NCBI RefSeq assembly: GCF_900113005.1
Contig: NZ_FONW01000001.1
Coordinates: 1,010,996-1,074,995 of the forward strand
Length of the DNA stretch: 64,000 nt
Reading direction: 5' to 3'
From: Sunxiuqinia elliptica
GTDB taxonomy: Bacteria > Bacteroidota > Bacteroidia > Bacteroidales > Prolixibacteraceae
The notes under the pieces were generated by a model that ran no database searches, was not told where the DNA came from, and saw only the letters and a list, made by a program, of their open reading frames with translations. This document shows positions 46,914 through 55,299 of this stretch, piece after piece (within the stretch, counting starts at the first letter, position 1; every line of letters begins with the position of its first letter). The position numbers and the translations under genes are program-made.

Positions 46914-47444
46914 TTATCCATTTAGTTGTTTTTTACATTTTGGGCAGAACGACCAATTCTTCTGATCAATATCTTCAACATAGGTGCTTGAGCGCATAAC
47001 GCAGGTAGGATTTGGGCAGTGGATGAGTCCAAATGCATGTCCCAGCTCATGAATAACTTCTTTTCGCAGACGGTCAATAAAAATCGACTCGTTGGGCGCA
47101 ATCCCATAACGTTCATTGCGTAGGCGGTAGGCAGAGGCAATGCCGCAGCGGCCGTTTAAAAAAGCTTGACCAAAAATGAAGGTTAGAATAGGAATGTAGA
47201 GGTCAACATTGAAAACAGCGAGTGTTTTGGCTTGATCTGAAGCAAATTGAAGGTTGATATCTTGAAGCAGGCTATTCCCATTGTATTGTCGCCTTGAAGG
47301 ATCAAAATAAAGACTTAAATCAAGGTAGCCTTCTCGGAGAATAACGGGAATTTGAAACTCCCGCTCGACGTCATACTTAATTTCATCAAGAAATCGTTTC
47401 TCGAAATAACCAAAGGAAATTAATGTAATGGTTTCCGGCTTCAT
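46914..47444 (-). CDS. archaemetzincin-type zinc metallopeptidase
   Basis: 176 residues. It has the complete archaemetzincin signature: HELGHAFGLIHC, then four residues and CVM, and a CPKC pair 18-20 residues later, giving the catalytic HExxHxxGxxH site plus a structural four-Cys zinc site. The Met of the turn is in CVMRS. Length is typical. No signal peptide, so cytoplasmic. Substrate unknown; in the family, human AMZ and archaeal members show weak peptidase activity. Convergent with the LytTR regulator gene, 29 bases apart. Confidence 0.9.
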   Translation of the reverse strand: MKPETITLISFGYFEKRFLDEIKYDVEREFQIPVILREGYLDLSLYFDPSRRQYNGNSLLQDINLQFASDQAKTLAVFNVDLYIPILTFIFGQAFLNGRCGIASAYRLRNERYGIAPNESIFIDRLRKEVIHELGHAFGLIHCPNPTCVMRSSTYVEDIDQKNWSFCPKCKKQLNG

Positions 47445-47522: not shown

Positions 47523-48863
47523 TTACTTACTTTGCTTGAGTTGATATTTTTTAATCTTGTTATACAGAGTTACTCGATCCACTTTCAACGCTTTGGCAGA
47601 GGCGGAGATGTTCCAATTGTATTTGTTAAGGATCTGAAGAATATGATGTTTTTCGAGGTCGTTTAAACTTTCAAATGAAGGGTTTGCTTCGGGGCGGTCG
47701 ATAGGAAGGTCTTTTAAGGTAATTTTCTTGCCGTTGCCAATAACAATGGCTCGTTCAATCATATTTTCCAATTCGCGGATGTTGCCGGGGAAAGGGAATT
47801 CTTCCAATCGTTTTAGTGCAGCTGGCTCAATAGCCATTAGTGCACGGTTCATGGTGCTACAGTATTTTTTAATGAAATAGTTGACGAGTAGTGGAATATC
47901 GTCAATGCGCTCACGTAGAGGAGGAACTTTGATGTTTACTACATTGAGCCGATAGTAGAGATCCTCACGGAAGACGCCGTTATCGACCATGGTTTTTAGG
48001 TCCCGGTTGGTGGCACAAATCACCCGAAAGTCAGATTTTATTTCCTTATTTCCTCCAACGCGCACAAAGCTTTTACTCTCGAGCACTCGTAGCAACTCGA
48101 TTTGCATTTTCGGTGAAATGGTTGCAATCTCATCCAAAAAGATGGTGCCGTTATTGGCCATTTCAAAACGTCCTTTCCGATTGTAGACCGCGCCAGTAAA
48201 AGCGCCTTTTTCGTGCCCAAATAGTTCACTTTCAAGTAAGCTCTCGGATAAGGCACCGCAATGAACACTCACCAATGGGAAGTATCTGCGAGGTGAGTTT
48301 GCATGAATGGCCCGAGCCACCAATTCTTTTCCTGTACCACTTTCGCCGGTGATAATTACTGACGCGTTGGATTGTGCTACACTCTCAATTTCACGGAACA
48401 CTTGATTCATCGCCTCACTTTCACCAATCAGATCTTCCACATTTTCCAGAGAAACCACCTTCTCTTTCAAAATTTCATTTTCCCCCATGAGGGCAATTTG
48501 TTTCGATGCATTTCGGATGAGGTGTGATAAGTCGTCAGGATCGAAAGGTTTGGTCACGTAGTCAAACGCACCGTCTTTAAGGGCTTGAACGGCTGTTTCA
48601 ACGGTTGCAAAAGCAGTCATCATAATGACGATGGCATCTTGCTGAATGGCTTTGATACGCTTTAACATCTCCAGTCCATCCATGCCTGGCATTTTGATGT
48701 CGGCCAGAATGATATCAAAACTTTCAGCCTCTAACCGATTTAAAGCAACTTTGGCATCTTCAGCACAGCCTACCCGATAGCCATCTTCAATAAACCAATT
48801 GTAGAGAGAGTCCCGTACGGAATTTTCATCGTCAACAACAAGTATGGAAATTTTTTGTGTCAT
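47523..48863 (-). CDS. NtrC-family sigma-54-dependent response regulator
   Basis: 446 residues: receiver domain (about 1-120, Asp in ILADIKMPGMDG), AAA+ sigma-54 activation domain (about 140-370) with Walker A GESGTGKE, the sigma-54-contacting GAFTGA in LFGHEKGAFTGAVY, and the Arg finger region PLRERIDDIP, then a Fis-type helix-turn-helix (WNISASAKALKVDRVTLYNKIKKY). It follows the kinase gene by 12 bases. Likely activates the adjacent redox operon, where a sigma-54-like element is found. Confidence 0.96.
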   Translation of the reverse strand: MTQKISILVVDDENSVRDSLYNWFIEDGYRVGCAEDAKVALNRLEAESFDIILADIKMPGMDGLEMLKRIKAIQQDAIVIMMTAFATVETAVQALKDGAFDYVTKPFDPDDLSHLIRNASKQIALMGENEILKEKVVSLENVEDLIGESEAMNQVFREIESVAQSNASVIITGESGTGKELVARAIHANSPRRYFPLVSVHCGALSESLLESELFGHEKGAFTGAVYNRKGRFEMANNGTIFLDEIATISPKMQIELLRVLESKSFVRVGGNKEIKSDFRVICATNRDLKTMVDNGVFREDLYYRLNVVNIKVPPLRERIDDIPLLVNYFIKKYCSTMNRALMAIEPAALKRLEEFPFPGNIRELENMIERAIVIGNGKKITLKDLPIDRPEANPSFESLNDLEKHHILQILNKYNWNISASAKALKVDRVTLYNKIKKYQLKQSK

Positions 48864-48875
48864 GATTTGGCTGAA

Positions 48876-50546
48876 TTAAGTCTTTAATAATGGTAGGGTG
48901 ATTGCAATGGTTGTTCCTTTTCCTGGTTGCGATTTGGCTTCCGTTTTTCCCTTATGACTTTGGATAATGCCATGAACAATAGATAAGCCAAGACCTGTGC
49001 CGCTCGCTTTTTCTTTTGTCGAAAAGAAAGGTTCAAACACATAAGGTAGATCTGCTTCAGCAATTCCAATGCCGTTGTCTATGATTTCAATTTGGATATG
49101 GTCGGAGTTTGGATTATGTGTACGAAGTGTGATTTCTCCATTTTCTCCGACGGCTTCTGAGGCATTGACTAAAATAGCCATGCAGGCTTGTTTTATTTGA
49201 TTGGGACTACAAAATATTTGATCATGCTTAGCAGACAAATCGGTTAAAAAGTGAATGTTGGCAATCTTCATGGGGTGACTCATCAGTGTTGCTGTATCGC
49301 TTAATATTTTATGGAGATGTTTGGCTTCAAATCCTTCCTGGTCTTTTTTGGAGAAGTCGAGTAAGCCTTTTACGATATCGCCACAACGCTTGGTTTCGCT
49401 TTCAATCAGTTTCAGGTGTTTTAGCATGTTGTTTACCTTGGTCTGATCGAGCGCGGGATTGCTTAGCTGTTTGTAGATGAGTTTGGTATAGATTAATATC
49501 CCGGATAATGGGTTGTTAATTTCGTGTGCAACTGATAAGGAGAGCTTGCCTAAGGAAGCAATACGTTCAATATTAATTAATTCGTTCTGCGCTTGTCCCA
49601 ACTCTTCCGATTTCTTTTGGACTTTGTATTCCAGTTGTTGCGACCAATTCTGGAGCTCGGTATTGGCAGTGTGCAGGTTGTCTAGCATCTCGTTGAACGC
49701 GTAGGAAACCATGCGCATATCCGAGAGCGAATTAGGCTTGATTCTAAGACGAGTGTTTTTGTCGCCTTTGGCTACCTTTTCTGCCGCACGAATAATCTCG
49801 TTTAGCGGGTTTTTAATTTTTTTGTTAGTGAAGAGAATGAGAAACAGGATGAACAGAATTGTCATCAAGGTGGCCATGAGGAAAAAGTCGGTGGTCGATT
49901 CTTGTAGGGCGCTATCTAGTTTTTCAAGTGGCATCTTGATGATAAGCGAGCCGAGGATCTTTTGATCGGCACTATGTGCGTGACACGCTGCTGTGTGGCA
50001 GGATGGAGCATTGAGGATGGGTGATTTAATCATTAAGTTCCGGACACTATCGTTGTCTGGATTCATGATACACTCACTCTTGGCTTCAATGATTCGGTAT
50101 GATTTTTCTTCTGCCGAAAACATTTGGGAGAAATCGACATGGCAGCTAATACAATCGGGATCGCTATGGTTGGCTGATTTGGCTGAAATGGAAGTGTAGG
50201 CCAAGTTGTTGTTGGCATCGTACATACTCACATTGTCGATCCCCGACATGTTGTTTATCAGGTCCAAGGTTCGTTGGAGTGATGCCTGGTCGTTTTTAAG
50301 CATGGCGTCATAGAGGGCTCCTTCTACCAAAAAACTGATGTTGTTTCCGTTTTCGCTGATCACGGACTTCATGTAGGTTTCATTTACCGACCGGAATATG
50401 ATGCCGAAAGAGACGAAGAGGAAAAAAGAGGAAATTGCAATGATAAAGATTACTCGTCCATAAATGGAAGATCTAAATTTGACATAACCATTAACTAGGG
50501 GGCTGCCAACGCGTTGCTTTTGTTCTATTTTTTTTAACCAGGGCAT
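48876..50546 (-). CDS. membrane histidine kinase with c-type heme motif in its sensor domain
   Basis: 556 residues. Membrane helices at about 30-52 and 220-240 enclose a periplasmic domain of some 165 residues. This holds a c-heme motif CISCH (Cys132, Cys135, His136) and a second, wider CHTAACH (Cys183, Cys188, His189), both likely heme or metal sites. A HAMP domain follows (about 243-295), a coiled coil, then HisKA with AHEINNPLSG and an HATPase domain with NASEAVGENG, DNGIGI and GTGLGLSIV. Expected to sense redox state or a gaseous ligand. Pair with the NtrC regulator. Confidence 0.9.
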   Translation of the reverse strand: MPWLKKIEQKQRVGSPLVNGYVKFRSSIYGRVIFIIAISSFFLFVSFGIIFRSVNETYMKSVISENGNNISFLVEGALYDAMLKNDQASLQRTLDLINNMSGIDNVSMYDANNNLAYTSISAKSANHSDPDCISCHVDFSQMFSAEEKSYRIIEAKSECIMNPDNDSVRNLMIKSPILNAPSCHTAACHAHSADQKILGSLIIKMPLEKLDSALQESTTDFFLMATLMTILFILFLILFTNKKIKNPLNEIIRAAEKVAKGDKNTRLRIKPNSLSDMRMVSYAFNEMLDNLHTANTELQNWSQQLEYKVQKKSEELGQAQNELINIERIASLGKLSLSVAHEINNPLSGILIYTKLIYKQLSNPALDQTKVNNMLKHLKLIESETKRCGDIVKGLLDFSKKDQEGFEAKHLHKILSDTATLMSHPMKIANIHFLTDLSAKHDQIFCSPNQIKQACMAILVNASEAVGENGEITLRTHNPNSDHIQIEIIDNGIGIAEADLPYVFEPFFSTKEKASGTGLGLSIVHGIIQSHKGKTEAKSQPGKGTTIAITLPLLKT

Positions 50547-50746: not shown

Positions 50747-51457
50747 TCAAGTCAGAAATTGCTCCTGAAAGTCTTGCCAAACTTCGGGAGGTAATTCTGC
50801 CATCGGATGTTCTACCAGTTCTCCTCCGTCTTGTAAAACAACCTGGCTCGGATCAGGCAGGTGTTGATTTACTGAGATAGAAAGGAAATCTTTAAAACGA
50901 ATCAGTTCCTGGGCAGCCCATTTGCTTGCATCTTCGGCTAAAAAATGCGTGTTGGTATCGGCTTTCCATGCAGTGGGTTTGATTTGGTAGATCCAGCCTT
51001 GGCGATAGGGATCTTCGCGCATCAGTTCAGGCTCTTCGGTTAGCAACTCATTGGCTTGCTGGATTACGCCAGAGATTGGAGAGAAGATGTGCAGACTTTT
51101 TCCATGATGATTGATCTGGGTTAACAATTCACCTTTTTTGACCTTTTGGCCTGGTTGTTTTAGATGTGTGATATTTACTTCTCCAGTTAGGTGGAGCAGT
51201 AAATCGTCAAGCCCAACTTTAGCAAGTCCATTCCGTTCAAGAAAAGTCCAGCTGTGAAACTTGCTGAAAAAGATCCCGTGAGGAATGCGTAAAGCTTTGG
51301 AGGTAATCAACCTGCTGGATAGTTGCCCTTGTTCGGGCGATTTTGACTTTCTTGTCAATAGACTCCAGAAAGGAATCAGTAGAAGAAAGAAGCCAATAAT
51401 GGCAAGGTATTCGATTCCCTTCGTTGCAAAGATATTGGTGTATGTAAATCCGTCCAT
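50747..51457 (-). CDS. membrane-anchored GcvH-like protein
   Basis: 236 residues. One helix at about 15-34, followed by RKSK, so the rest should be cytoplasmic. Residues 65-165 follow glycine-cleavage H protein: HSWTFLERNGLAKVGLDDLLLHLTG in pattern, KVKKGELLTQ, a hairpin HHGKSLHIF, SPISGVI and DPYRQGWIYQIKP. The candidate lipoyl Lys120 is ten residues before the SG of SPISG, where the lipoylated Lys of GcvH lies eleven residues before it. A C-terminal extension ends with LQDGGE and LPPEVWQDFQ, also found at the end of the larger fusion protein. Last gene of the structural operon. Confidence 0.85.
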   Translation of the reverse strand: MDGFTYTNIFATKGIEYLAIIGFFLLLIPFWSLLTRKSKSPEQGQLSSRLITSKALRIPHGIFFSKFHSWTFLERNGLAKVGLDDLLLHLTGEVNITHLKQPGQKVKKGELLTQINHHGKSLHIFSPISGVIQQANELLTEEPELMREDPYRQGWIYQIKPTAWKADTNTHFLAEDASKWAAQELIRFKDFLSISVNQHLPDPSQVVLQDGGELVEHPMAELPPEVWQDFQEQFLT

Positions 51458-51497: not shown

Positions 51498-52730
51498 TTA
51501 GGGTTTCGTGTGCTGAGCCCAGCGGGGAGATTCACTAAGGACAGGCATACGACTGATAACCCAGCGAAAAATCCAAATCTGGATGAGAATGATACTTACA
51601 CTAACAACCACTTCCATCCACGAAGGAATGTAGTGTGTGGCAGCATCCCAGCGGAAAGCGATGATTGACACATTCAAGCGATTTAGAATAATACCAAGAA
51701 TGGTAATGATCGCAGCGATTCGGCTTAGCAAGATATTTGATGTTCGGGATGCGTAGAAAAAGAGAGCCATTGGGAGTAATACAAAGCCAAGCATTTCAAG
51801 AAGGAACCAGTAGCCCATTGGCGTATTGAGTAGGTTCCAATGCTGGCCGTGAATGAAAACCAGAAATTGCATGGCTAGGTAGGCAAACATGGAAAAGGCA
51901 CAGATTTTCGAGAGGCTTTGTACTAGGTTGTTGCGGGCTTCGTGGTTTTTAGGGCTGATTTTTTGGAAGAATACGCGCTGGCTAATTGATCCTTCAAAAA
52001 TGACCATGGACAATCCTGCAAAAACGCTGGATACTAAAAATAGAATTGGAATAAACTCATTGGACCACAAAGGATGAATCTTTTGGCTGGCCATGAGAAA
52101 TAGTGCTCCCAAGCCAGATTGATGCAAAGTTGAAAGTGTTATTCCGAAAATAACTGCTCCCAGTGTCAGGCCAGAGAGTAACTTGTGGGCACGGCGTGAG
52201 CCTAGCCATTCGGCAATCGCTGGCGAGAATTCAATTAATTGAGCAACAATGTAGAGCAGGAAATGCCAAGCGACCAGAAATAAGACCGAGCTGGCTCCAA
52301 AGCTGTTCCCAATAATCGGATTAAAAATGTTCCACGGTTTACCTAAGTCGAGTACCAGTGCTCCGGCATAAAATAGGTAGGCCAGAAATCCGTTTAGCAC
52401 GGTTACCCGGACAATGGAATGAAATTTATCGACCTTCAAAATATAAACAATGAAGGTGAGGACATAAGCCCCGCCAGCAAATGCGACACCGGTGACAACA
52501 TTGAAGCCTTTCCAGAGCCCCCAAGGGATTTCTTGGTTGACGTTGGACACGGATTCGAGCCCTTGTGTAAAACGAATGATAATGAGGACTACTCCCGCCA
52601 GAATGATGGGAATGGAAATCAAGTTGAATGGTGTTAACCATTTCCCGCGGGGTTTTAGTTCACTCATTAAAAATTGCCAGCTCGATTGATTCCTGGTTGC
52701 TTTCGAAATGGGAAGTATTGGGCTAGTCAT
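51498..52730 (-). CDS. NrfD/HybB-type quinone-interacting membrane subunit
   Basis: 410 residues with nine or ten membrane helices over nearly the full length. It resembles HybB-type NrfD/PsrC proteins, the integral subunit that exchanges electrons between a periplasmic ferredoxin-like subunit and the quinone pool. It begins just inside the end of the ferredoxin gene (8-base overlap), the usual hybA-hybB order. No hydrogenase subunit follows. Menaquinone is the likely partner, given the men genes in the window. Confidence 0.88.
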   Translation of the reverse strand: MTSPILPISKATRNQSSWQFLMSELKPRGKWLTPFNLISIPIILAGVVLIIIRFTQGLESVSNVNQEIPWGLWKGFNVVTGVAFAGGAYVLTFIVYILKVDKFHSIVRVTVLNGFLAYLFYAGALVLDLGKPWNIFNPIIGNSFGASSVLFLVAWHFLLYIVAQLIEFSPAIAEWLGSRRAHKLLSGLTLGAVIFGITLSTLHQSGLGALFLMASQKIHPLWSNEFIPILFLVSSVFAGLSMVIFEGSISQRVFFQKISPKNHEARNNLVQSLSKICAFSMFAYLAMQFLVFIHGQHWNLLNTPMGYWFLLEMLGFVLLPMALFFYASRTSNILLSRIAAIITILGIILNRLNVSIIAFRWDAATHYIPSWMEVVVSVSIILIQIWIFRWVISRMPVLSESPRWAQHTKP

Positions 52731-53589
52731 AATTTTCGTCTTTCGTTTTTTTAGATTTTGTAGCTTCGTGGATTCCTAGAAGCAGCGTAGGTACTAGTAT
52801 AAAGACAGAAGGTACACTGTATAGAAAGCTTTTGGTTAAAGCGGGGTACGATGAATCTTGGATGCGTTTGTCGAAACCTAATTCATCTGGTGTTACCGGA
52901 GCAAGATAGAGGTAGCCGGTGCCGCCGGCAACTTCTTTTCCATAAATCGAATCGAGATACAGTTCAGGGATTTCTGTAATTCGGCGACGGGCTTCAGTTA
53001 GTAGCTCCTGACGGGTTCCAAAGAAAAGCGCATCGCCGCAGGTTTCAACGCAAACTGGCTTTTTACCCTCGATGATCCGGTCATAGCACATGTCGCATTT
53101 CTGAATTTTTGGATTGGTGCTTCCATATTCAAATTTAGGAACATCAAAAGGGCAAGAGATCATGCAATAGCGACATCCCATACATTTATTTTCTCGCCAA
53201 ATAACAGGCCCTTCTTTGGTTTTATACATTGCTTGAGTGAGGCAAGCCGCAGCACAAGCAGGTTCGTCACAGTGCATGCATTGGTTGCGTACGTAGACTT
53301 CGCCTTGAGAGGTTTCATAACTGTTGATCACACAACGTTGGTTTTCGCTGGTTTTTCGCAGTATTCCTTTTTCGGGCTTGTCTGTTGGTTCGGGAAGCCC
53401 GTGTGCTTTGGCGCAGGCTTTTTCGCAGGCTTGGCATCCGATGCAGATACTTGAATCATACAGAATGCCGTAAAATTCGGAATCATGCTCGTCTGTCTCT
53501 GCTTTTGGGGCTCCCGAAGCTCTGACACCGATGATGCTCATGCTTGTTATTGCAATACTTTTGAAGAATTTTCGACGATCAATTGTCAT
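52723..53589 (-). CDS. Tat-exported four-cluster ferredoxin, HybA type
   Basis: 288 residues. Tat signal with RRKFFK (residues 5-10). Four cysteine groups for 4Fe-4S clusters: CIGCQACEKAC, CMHCDEPACAAAC, CMGCRYCMISC and CDMCYDR with CVETC. A C-terminal helix (about 252-272) should anchor it in the membrane on the periplasmic side, as in HybA. Passes electrons to or from the NrfD-type subunit. Starts 45 bases after the fusion gene. Confidence 0.93.
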   Translation of the reverse strand: MTIDRRKFFKSIAITSMSIIGVRASGAPKAETDEHDSEFYGILYDSSICIGCQACEKACAKAHGLPEPTDKPEKGILRKTSENQRCVINSYETSQGEVYVRNQCMHCDEPACAAACLTQAMYKTKEGPVIWRENKCMGCRYCMISCPFDVPKFEYGSTNPKIQKCDMCYDRIIEGKKPVCVETCGDALFFGTRQELLTEARRRITEIPELYLDSIYGKEVAGGTGYLYLAPVTPDELGFDKRIQDSSYPALTKSFLYSVPSVFILVPTLLLGIHEATKSKKTKDENYD

Positions 53590-53634: not shown

Positions 53635-55299
53635 TTACCGAGCGGAGTCGATGAACTTGGTTTGAAAATCATCCCAAATTTCAGGAGCGAGATCACCCAG
53701 TATTTGGTCGGTAATTTCTCCGCCATCTTGGAGGATCAAGTGGTCGAAAACCATGCTATTGGCGTTTGCTGCATGAGCCAGAAAGTCTTTTAGCCGAGTG
53801 AATTCATCTTCAAGCCATTCTCTATAAGTGCTGGAGCGAAATAACAAGCGAACTTCTCGGTCCCAGTTAAGAGGTTCAATTTGGTACACCCAGCCATCGG
53901 CATAGGGACTTGTGTTCAATTGCGTTGGAGAGTCAAGCAATGATTGGTTTTGAGCTTTTATTATGCCGGAAACAGGTGTGTAAATTTCCAGTTGCTTGCC
54001 TTCGCGGATGATGGTTAGAATTTTCTCGCCTTTGTGGACTTTCGTCCCGGCCTTTTTAAGTTTTACTTGCGTTAATGGTCCGGTTAGGTGCTGCAAAAAA
54101 TCATCGATCCCAACTTTAACGAAGCCGTCGCGTTCCATAAACGCCCAAGTGTGACTTTTGTCGTAAAACAAGCCCGCAGGAGACTCAATTGAGCTCTCGT
54201 TCATTGCAGGAGTCATGCCGAGATCTTCGCTGTCAATGGTTGGCAGCTTTTTGCGTTTGGAACGAGAAAAACGATAAATAGCAAGAATAATAATCACAAA
54301 GGTTCCTGGAAGTAGCCATCCTAGGGGAAGACCACTTGTGGAGCCCGACAGATTAATAGGCTCGCTGAGAGGAGTTAAAATTTGAGTATTGCCTGTTTTA
54401 GCTCGGCTGGAGAGGGGGCTGTAGCCTGATGCTGCCAATAATTCTTGCCCGCTACCATTGAGCCAGTTTAAGAACTCTAAAGCGTTTTGCTGGCTTGGTT
54501 GGGAGCTAGCCACTGCATAAACTTTTCCACTAAGTTCGCGGGGGTATTTGCCTAGCCAGACGCCACGGCTCAGGGCTTCTGGATTTTGGTAAATATCCTC
54601 AAACTGATCCAGGCGTCCGTTTCTGTTTTTGTCAATTGGCAAAATGCTAATTTGCTCATTGAATGTTTTGCTGTCGGTGTTGATGAGGTCAACAAGTTTG
54701 CAGAAACCAATTGAGTAGATGTTTTCTTGTACTGTTTGAATGAGCTCCTTGGGGGATGAGAGTTTTGTCGCCAAAATGGCATCTTTATCCAAGTTGGTGT
54801 AGTTTGCAATTTTGGTTAAAAGTTCCTCATTGTCTGTGAGATACATTGTGAAGGGTGCGTTAGCTGTGCTGCCTAAAACTTGCTCCCAGTTAGGGAGCTC
54901 AGAAGCAGCTAAAAGGGCCAGACTTTTTGCATGAATTCCTTGTTGTTGGATTTCCTGAAGCAGGGGATTGTTCGAGCTGGTAATTGGCACAATAACATCA
55001 TGACCAATGACCATCTGCCAGTTCAATGCATCAGAGCTTAATTGAGCTTGAGTTGTTAGGTAGAGTTGTCCCTCAGCCAATGCCATTTCAGAAGTCATTT
55101 TGCTGATGGTGACTTTTTTGTTTGGATATTGACTTTCATAGCTGGCTGCCCAGTTGGTTGTCAGATCTATGAGTTCCGGAGAGCAGAATAGTTCTAAACC
55201 TGTCTTTTCTGCTGGCTGATCATTTTCAGCGATGCTGAAGCTAGTCAGGCTAAGCAGAAAGAAAGGTAGCGTTAAAAAAAATGTTAGAAAGGTTTTCAT
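53635..55299 (-). CDS. PstS-like periplasmic domain fused by a membrane helix to a GcvH-like domain
   Basis: 554 residues. Signal peptide 1-24. Residues about 34-300 resemble a PstS-type (PBP-like) substrate-binding domain and contain a calcium-loop-like DKNRNGRLDQFE (223-234). A membrane helix at 324-343 ends in RSKRKK, placing the rest in the cytoplasm. Residues 376-480 form a GcvH-like domain: HTWAFMERDGFVKVG, KVHKGEKIL, hairpin REGKQLEIY, TPVSGII and SPYADGW. Lys435 is again one residue off the GcvH lipoyl position. The tail carries LQDGGE and LAPEIWDDFQ, as in the smaller protein. First gene of the operon, with a sigma-54-like element upstream. Confidence 0.85.
   Translation of the reverse strand: MKTFLTFFLTLPFFLLSLTSFSIAENDQPAEKTGLELFCSPELIDLTTNWAASYESQYPNKKVTISKMTSEMALAEGQLYLTTQAQLSSDALNWQMVIGHDVIVPITSSNNPLLQEIQQQGIHAKSLALLAASELPNWEQVLGSTANAPFTMYLTDNEELLTKIANYTNLDKDAILATKLSSPKELIQTVQENIYSIGFCKLVDLINTDSKTFNEQISILPIDKNRNGRLDQFEDIYQNPEALSRGVWLGKYPRELSGKVYAVASSQPSQQNALEFLNWLNGSGQELLAASGYSPLSSRAKTGNTQILTPLSEPINLSGSTSGLPLGWLLPGTFVIIILAIYRFSRSKRKKLPTIDSEDLGMTPAMNESSIESPAGLFYDKSHTWAFMERDGFVKVGIDDFLQHLTGPLTQVKLKKAGTKVHKGEKILTIIREGKQLEIYTPVSGIIKAQNQSLLDSPTQLNTSPYADGWVYQIEPLNWDREVRLLFRSSTYREWLEDEFTRLKDFLAHAANANSMVFDHLILQDGGEITDQILGDLAPEIWDDFQTKFIDSAR

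Follow-up and report, generated by a model that had tools for sequence, protein, structure and literature searches.

A predicted PstS-type periplasmic domain fused to a GcvH-like domain without the lipoyl lysine heads a histidine kinase operon in Sunxiuqinia elliptica

Genes and features of the locus

The window, by which we mean the whole stretch of 64,000 nucleotides of Sunxiuqinia elliptica DNA analyzed here, contains at positions 53635 to 55299 a long open reading frame on the minus strand, in a region where the plus strand is dense with stop codons. Its product is laid out as a signal peptide, an apparently degenerate PstS fold, a transmembrane helix, a predicted GcvH fold without the lipoyl lysine and a C-terminal extension with a QDGG motif. 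The gene for this fusion protein heads an operon in which it is followed, in this order, by the genes for an HmcB-like Fe-S protein, an HmcC-like NrfD protein, a second GcvH-like protein (GcvH2), a histidine kinase, a sigma54 regulator and an archaemetzincin. The features are the following.

53635 to 55299, minus strand: PstS-like/transmembrane/GcvH fusion, 554 amino acids
54376 to 55203, minus strand: predicted periplasmic PstS-type domain, residues 33 to 308 approximately (AlphaFold2 block with pLDDT 67-93, PDB matches)
54598 to 54633, minus strand: EF-hand-like loop DKNRNGRLDQFE, residues 223 to 234 (columns conserved in fusions and solo proteins)
54268 to 54339, minus strand: transmembrane helix, residues 321 to 344, followed by RFSRSKRKK (hydropathy; helix at 329-346 in the model)
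53803 to 54183, minus strand: GcvH domain, residues 373 to 499 approximately, with Gly434 at the lipoyl-lysine column and Lys435 adjoining
53638 to 53802, minus strand: C-terminal extension, residues 500 to 554, with Q524-D525-G526-G527 (conserved in 81 fusions)
52723 to 53589, minus strand: HmcB/HybA-like Fe-S protein with a twin-arginine start and 16 conserved cysteines (NF045715)
51498 to 52730, minus strand: HmcC/HybB-like NrfD membrane protein (PF03916, NF045714)
50747 to 51457, minus strand: GcvH2, second membrane-anchored GcvH-like protein, with Gly at the lipoyl-lysine column
48876 to 50546, minus strand: sensor histidine kinase with a periplasmic single-Cache-like domain carrying CXXCH and CX4CH, then HAMP, HisKA and HATPase_c
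47523 to 48863, minus strand: sigma54-dependent response regulator (AtoC/NtrC type)
46914 to 47444, minus strand: archaemetzincin-family metalloprotease (NF033823, PF07998)

The best NCBIfam matches of the two genes downstream of the fusion are HmcB-HmcC/HybA-HybB, and both proteins score below the equivalog cut-offs, with 275.7 bits against 420 for the HmcB-like protein (NF045715) and 379.7 bits against 550 for the NrfD protein (NF045714); the latter exceeds the cut-off of PF03916 (45.3 bits, cut-off 25.8). The 16 cysteine columns are present in 64 of 64 HmcB-like proteins and the twin-arginine start in 59 of these, which suggests that HmcB is exported and hence would lie on the opposite side of the membrane from the GcvH half of the fusion. 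The archaemetzincin scores above the cut-offs of both NF033823 (160 bits, cut-off 145) and PF07998 (84 bits, cut-off 24.4). No open reading frame with more than one CXXCH motif was found in the 19 kb around the operon of the window.

Architecture and predicted folds of the fusion

Throughout, we compare 81 fusions, the window protein plus those of the 80 loci described below, and all column counts come from one alignment of all 81. By hydropathy, the window protein has two hydrophobic segments, residues 3 to 24 (the signal peptide) and 321 to 344. Hydropathy estimates, made with no topology program, give two such segments in 67 of the 81 fusions and one in the other 14, and in 64 of 81 the 15 residues that follow the transmembrane helix carry more positive charge than the 15 that precede it. 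The Pfam model GCV_H matches residues 378 to 498 (87.2 bits, cut-off 22.2; E=1e-24), and PBP_like_2 matches residues 45 to 244 with 18.1 bits (E=0.0024), under its gathering cut-off of 27. With the Pfam score below threshold, it is the AlphaFold2 model (13-row alignment, mean pLDDT 73, pTM 0.52) that settles the predicted PBP identity of the periplasmic half. Modeled residues 30 to 311 superimpose on the PstS-type structures 4jwo (Z 21.3, rmsd 5.3, 262 aligned) and 1twy (Z 20.0, rmsd 3.3, 231 aligned), and modeled residues 371 to 501 on the H-proteins 3klr (Z 17.1, rmsd 1.9, 125 aligned) and 3a8k (Z 17.0, rmsd 1.7, 126 aligned); the best Foldseek E-values are 1.1e-15 for a PstS-type entry and 9.2e-12 for an H-protein. 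The C-terminal QDGG motif is virtually constant, with Q524, G526 and G527 each present in 81 of 81 fusions and D525 in 80.

A first-pass annotation of this DNA had proposed a PstS-like periplasmic half (residues 34-300) connected by a single helix with a positive cytoplasmic flank (324-343) to a GcvH-like half (376-480), in an architecture outside known families, and had named a fold prediction as a check. The results agree with this outline: in the model the two halves resolve as a PBP fold of PstS type and an H-protein fold, the proposed boundaries are approximately right, the helix is followed by the basic stretch given above, and no Pfam or NCBIfam model searched covers the whole protein. 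The EF-hand-like loop, to which that annotation had also pointed, is indeed a conserved motif of the fusions.

Conservation and co-inheritance

A scan of one genome per species yielded 226 related stretches, the best 80 of which were retained. As an open reading frame with both halves is present in 80 of these 80 loci, the fusion is not a product of chance. The best 80 of the 226 lie in Bacteroidota, including Sunxiuqinia, Mariniphaga, Tangfeifania and Carboxylicivirga, and many of them come from metagenome bins, two labeled Chitinophaga pinensis.

Partner genes were sought among the next eight open reading frames, delimited by a greedy ORF caller, at those 61 of the 80 loci with at least 6,500 bp of downstream sequence. 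All six partners fall within these eight frames at 42 of the 61 loci, and another seven possess the kinase, the regulator and the archaemetzincin without HmcB, NrfD and GcvH2; because of these two groups we regard the kinase as the steadier partner. Four loci lack the archaemetzincin alone (at one of them, L134, it is the ninth frame), three lack HmcB alone (L114, L117 and L120, possibly ORF-calling misses), three have HmcB, NrfD and GcvH2 with no kinase nearby, one lacks the regulator and the archaemetzincin, and one has the fusion with none of the six. The gene immediately downstream of the fusion encodes HmcB in 65 of the 80 loci and the kinase in eight.

Genome-wide co-occurrence of the fusion, the kinase sensor, the archaemetzincin and NrfD was assessed in 41 related genomes, that of the window included. 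The fusion, the kinase sensor (E up to 1e-10) and the archaemetzincin (E up to 1e-5) occur in the same 13 of the 41 genomes and in none of the 28 others, a co-inheritance among related genomes in which the 13 are not independent events. NrfD is found in 11 of these 13 genomes and in none of the 28; the remaining two (G309 and G324) have the fusion, the kinase and the archaemetzincin and yield no NrfD match genome-wide. A neighborhood set of 14 loci that we also used overlaps with the set of 80, several contigs being the same, and the two sets are consequently not independent of each other.

Among 119 sampled genomes of the order, ten carry the full fusion and two only its transmembrane-GcvH part (E <1e-60). 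The module of these two genomes has an unchanged gene order and no PBP half at the locus, and one of the two is also devoid of HmcB, NrfD and GcvH2. No PBP remnant was detected within 12 kb around the two unfused loci (best tblastn E 0.11). Since both keep the module without it, the PBP half is optional, and the transmembrane GcvH-like protein, the kinase, the regulator and the archaemetzincin form the core common to the two unfused genomes and most fusion loci.

The periplasmic half

For comparison with the periplasmic half, we used 13 stand-alone (solo) PstS-type proteins from 12 loci, at which two proteins of about 300 amino acids and an ATPase-like protein follow, as in pst operons (read by eye). 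The motifs SGAFALYP, GGAGKG, SR and RSDA-GA are common to the solo proteins, with 12 or 13 of the 13 agreeing at every column; judged by alignment to 4gd5, a phosphate-binding protein, these motifs would line the phosphate pocket. When aligned with the 13 solo proteins, the 81 fusions do not conserve these motifs, and the column of the solo residue Gly162 is a gap in 81 of 81. The fusion thus resembles the PstS-type proteins of Bacteroidota pst-like operons in predicted fold, EF-hand-like loop and overall alignment, and it differs from them in the unconserved pocket motifs, in the attached transmembrane helix and GcvH domain, and in its genetic setting outside a pst-like operon with PstC, PstA and PstB. 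Judged from this alignment, the PstS half is degenerate and has lost the ancestral pocket motifs, and because of this loss we rejected a role as phosphate sensor or in phosphate uptake.

The EF-hand-like loop has been preserved. Its pattern, D223-x-N225-x-N227-G-x-x-D231-x-x-E234, is near-invariant in the fusions, with D223, N225, N227 and E234 each in 81 of 81, G228 in 76 and D231 in 79, where the other two have Glu. The same columns are kept in 12 or 13 of the 13 solo proteins each; because these stand-alone relatives possess the loop too, it is an inherited trait, and a calcium loop specific to the fusion is thereby ruled out. Position 200 (window positions 54700-54702) is a Cys in 79 of 81 fusions and an Asn in 13 of 13 solo pst-linked proteins, which makes C200, by the alignment, a putative newly gained conserved periplasmic cysteine.

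These properties would fit a true ligand sensor with changed specificity, which might bind Ca2+ at the EF-hand-like loop together with some other small molecule, possibly one that contains sulfur or reacts with thiols and is bound at the conserved Cys200, with the GcvH half relaying the signal to the kinase. The predicted intactness of the PBP fold, the retention of the domain in 80 of 80 loci, the exchange at position 200 and the retained calcium-type loop all speak for it. However, the fusions do not keep the pocket motifs seen in the pst-linked proteins, the PBP half is the more variable of the two halves, with a median identity to the window protein of 34 percent versus 57 percent for the GcvH half, and in the two unfused genomes the module persists with no PBP half at the locus. 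We therefore consider ligand sensing by the periplasmic half unlikely, and we treat it as the most serious rival to the accessory-subunit reading developed in the Discussion.

The GcvH half

The column of the lipoyl lysine is occupied by Gly434 in 81 of 81 fusions, and in GcvH2 by Gly in 60 of 61 rows and a gap in the other. By contrast, 17 of 17 canonical GcvH rows from the window genome and others of the phylum have the Lys within [VI]EAVK (two further loci gave no canonical GcvH ORF); the canonical GcvH of the window genome is encoded separately, on another contig. The fusion accordingly shares with GcvH (PF01597) the domain and, in the model, the fold (87.2 bits; Z of about 17 to solved H-proteins) and differs from it by the Gly in place of the lipoyl lysine, by the membrane anchor, by its position in a kinase operon and by its score against the NCBIfam GcvH equivalog (74.1 bits, cut-off 115.85). 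It also falls below the cut-off of NF045810, the model of a related non-canonical GcvH-related protein of sulfate reducers (38.9 bits, cut-off 150). The first-pass annotation had taken the protein for a working solute-binding domain wired to an H-protein-like carrier; neither role is supported, given the unconserved pocket motifs on one side of the membrane and the Gly at the lipoyl column on the other. We file the fusion outside both GcvH and PstS because, in our tests, it lacks defining features of both.

Although the Gly in both the fusions and GcvH2 sets back the lipoate carrier as leading idea, we keep it as a rival because 81 of 81 fusions have Lys435 directly after the lipoyl column, and modification at this residue would consequently be feasible. 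In that case, the GcvH half would be lipoylated at Lys435 and serve as an electron-transfer or acyl carrier that shuttles between the NrfD complex and cytoplasmic enzymes. A Lys at the corresponding place in 55 of 61 GcvH2 rows and the usual presence of NrfD and Fe-S partners are in keeping with this. It has to contend, however, with the Gly at the actual lipoyl column against the [VI]EAVK of canonical GcvHs, with the variability of this column in other module rows described below, with the position of HmcB across the membrane that its putative twin-arginine export implies, and with the two fusion genomes that are missing NrfD; we deem it highly improbable.

GcvH-like proteins in other families of the phylum

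From other families of the phylum, 20 loci were picked among the best matches. Ten of them (L064-L067, L071, L072, L074-L076 and L080) have a transmembrane GcvH-like protein together with HmcB, NrfD, a kinase and a regulator, and two of these (L074 and L076) also an archaemetzincin. Two loci (L069 and L070) combine two GcvH-like proteins with HmcB and NrfD, with no kinase within the stretch viewed. Three (L077, L078 and L081) encode fusions of a receiver domain to a GcvH-like domain, with two paralogues per locus, beside a haem-motif kinase, in operons that also encode an HmcB-NrfD pair and multihaem cytochromes with 13 to 19 CXXCH motifs. The Pfam scan covered the two proteins of L078 and found both domains in each, and those of L077 and L081 are alike by phmmer. 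The lipoyl column varies among other module rows, with Lys in 3 of 35 (L065, L077 and L078), and the loss of lipoylation can hence not be extended to each wider family.

In a tree of 77 GcvH domains, 17 canonical rows split from 60 module rows with support 100/99, and the 14 PBP fusions group together in a single clade (100/98). A second tree that contains the two unfused proteins does not separate a single gain from a loss of the PBP half; its 54 fusion rows are drawn from every second of the 80 loci and from 16 further ones, with duplicates, and a topology constrained to unite all 54 is not rejected (p-AU 0.286). One outgroup branch in this tree has a length of 10.

Another family of proteins encoded in these operons is marked by a Cys-rich N-terminal motif, approximately C-[IVL]-W-x2-AG-x5-LC-x5-C-x2-C, which precedes the GcvH-like domain at ten loci (L062-L065, L067, L068, L072-L075) and is possibly a metal site; ORFs with this motif also occur at L071:11584 and L080:6476, there with no GcvH match at threshold.

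The partner kinase

All 65 kinases examined contain a CXXCH motif, 63 of them with CX4CH as well and two with CXXCH alone; both motifs are retained in eight of the eight kinases that directly follow the fusion. The model of the sensor domain (mean pLDDT 67.8) is similar to single-Cache domains such as those of WalK, 4ywz (Z 12.5, rmsd 2.9, 134 aligned), and LuxQ, 3c30 (Z 8.9, rmsd 4.1, 144 aligned). Foldseek also lists 3b42 and 3b47, c-haem sensors of Geobacter, with poor overlays (rmsd 14-15 Å). The sCache_4 model, which 10 of 33 kinase members match, gives 18.3 bits with the window kinase, under its cut-off of 22.1, and the DUF3365/Tll0287 model is absent among the 16 Pfam families matched by kinase members. 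Sequence searches of the PDB with the kinase sensor returned no credible relative (best E 0.067, an unrelated transcription factor). With modest confidence, based on the model, we predict that the periplasmic domain is a single Cache domain.

As described in a 2026 preprint (PMC12889525), the sCache_heme sensors (DUF3365/Tll0287, GSU0582) likewise have a periplasmic Cache-like domain with CXXCH ahead of HAMP and kinase; the window kinase differs from them by its two haem motifs, CXXCH and CX4CH. In the same preprint, c-haem Cache domains fused to signaling modules are assigned NO-sensor properties and stand-alone ones look redox-related (PMC12889525).

At four loci (L128, L139, L146 and L159), two adjacent kinase genes precede one response regulator, and one genome (G300:C1:582234-583188) has its kinase divided between two reading frames that overlap, through sequencing error or decay.

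A search for promoters that the sigma54 regulator might control found no enrichment of the sigma54 consensus in the window (35 matches with at most two mismatches, 37.4 expected). Genome-wide, 150 matches with at most one mismatch compare with 77 for the reversed pattern; the only two exact matches are on another contig, one of them about 50 bases before an ORF of 157 amino acids that gave no lead. Upstream of the fusion genes, a relaxed pattern is present at 2 of 77 loci, and no promoter stands out.

Discussion

The operon context of the fusion shifts its reading toward signal transduction. We propose that the protein spans the membrane as an accessory subunit of a two-component system of the c-haem type, built from a repurposed PstS fold and a non-lipoylated GcvH-like adaptor, a proposal that we judge about equally likely to hold or to fail. 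We favor it over a role in transport or as a metabolic carrier because the kinase and the archaemetzincin track the fusion in 13 of 13 genomes and NrfD in 11 of 13, because the active-site motifs of both halves are gone, and because GcvH-like domains recur beside kinases or fused to receiver domains.

On the outside, the PstS fold without its oxyanion pocket would dock on the Cache-like domain of the kinase, or sense on its behalf, in a physical complex comparable to that of LuxP on LuxQ. In both systems, a protein with a PBP fold accompanies a kinase whose periplasmic domain is Cache-like, and docking is proposed here by this analogy. LuxP belongs to another class of PBPs, with a type I PBP fold; the periplasmic protein of the window differs from it in that it has a predicted PstS fold, is tethered, is devoid of the ancestral pocket motifs and has a cytoplasmic GcvH domain attached. 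On the inside, the non-lipoylated GcvH fold together with the QDGG tail would provide the kinase or the regulator with a protein adaptor. Where present, HmcB-HmcC and the second transmembrane GcvH-like protein would pass the redox state of the quinone pool to periplasmic haems, which the kinase presumably attaches through its CXXCH and CX4CH motifs. The signal would then run inward, and the phosphorylated sigma54 regulator would alter transcription.

Several of our data count against this accessory subunit. Three of the 61 loci are without a kinase nearby and one has none of the six partners; the commonest first neighbor is HmcB (65 of 80); Lys435 is invariant, and Lys stands at the lipoyl column in 3 of 35 other module rows. 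In addition, the genomes compared are related, the sensor model is modest, the overlays with 3b42 and 3b47 are poor, and no regulated promoter was found.

The prominence of HmcB could alternatively mean that the fusion helps to assemble or scaffold the HmcB-HmcC complex and that the kinase merely regulates the operon, as the three loci with HmcB, NrfD and GcvH2 and no kinase nearby might indicate as well, but two genomes (G309 and G324) have the fusion, the kinase and the archaemetzincin with no NrfD match, the Hmc genes are absent nearby in 7 of 61 loci, and receiver-GcvH fusions exist, so that we give this explanation very little credence.

A wider proposal can be made, which we advance tentatively and regard as somewhat more likely wrong than right. 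A branch of the H-protein fold that has no lipoate, ends in a DGG-type tail and is for the most part anchored in the membrane might have left metabolism to serve as a general adaptor of haem-type two-component systems in Bacteroidota, in forms that comprise the plain transmembrane GcvH, the Cys4-GcvH and the receiver-GcvH proteins. One lineage would then have recruited a dead PstS as a periplasmic arm, and could thereby read quinone redox and periplasmic state together across the membrane.

Searches of open-licence PubMed Central texts for the architecture and for its parts brought up no paper that describes it. While the individual domains are known, their combination and apparent use have not been described in the open-licence literature that we searched. 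Environmental Bacteroidota possess a co-inherited module, of seven genes at its fullest, in which folds from transport and metabolism, apparently stripped of their chemistry, are kept beside a haem-motif kinase. The strong GcvH match may cause such genes to be annotated as glycine cleavage proteins, a label that would be misleading if the accessory-subunit reading is true. This reading is testable in a genus with cultured members, as Sunxiuqinia strains are among the fusion records, and if it is true, a type of two-component accessory protein would have been overlooked.
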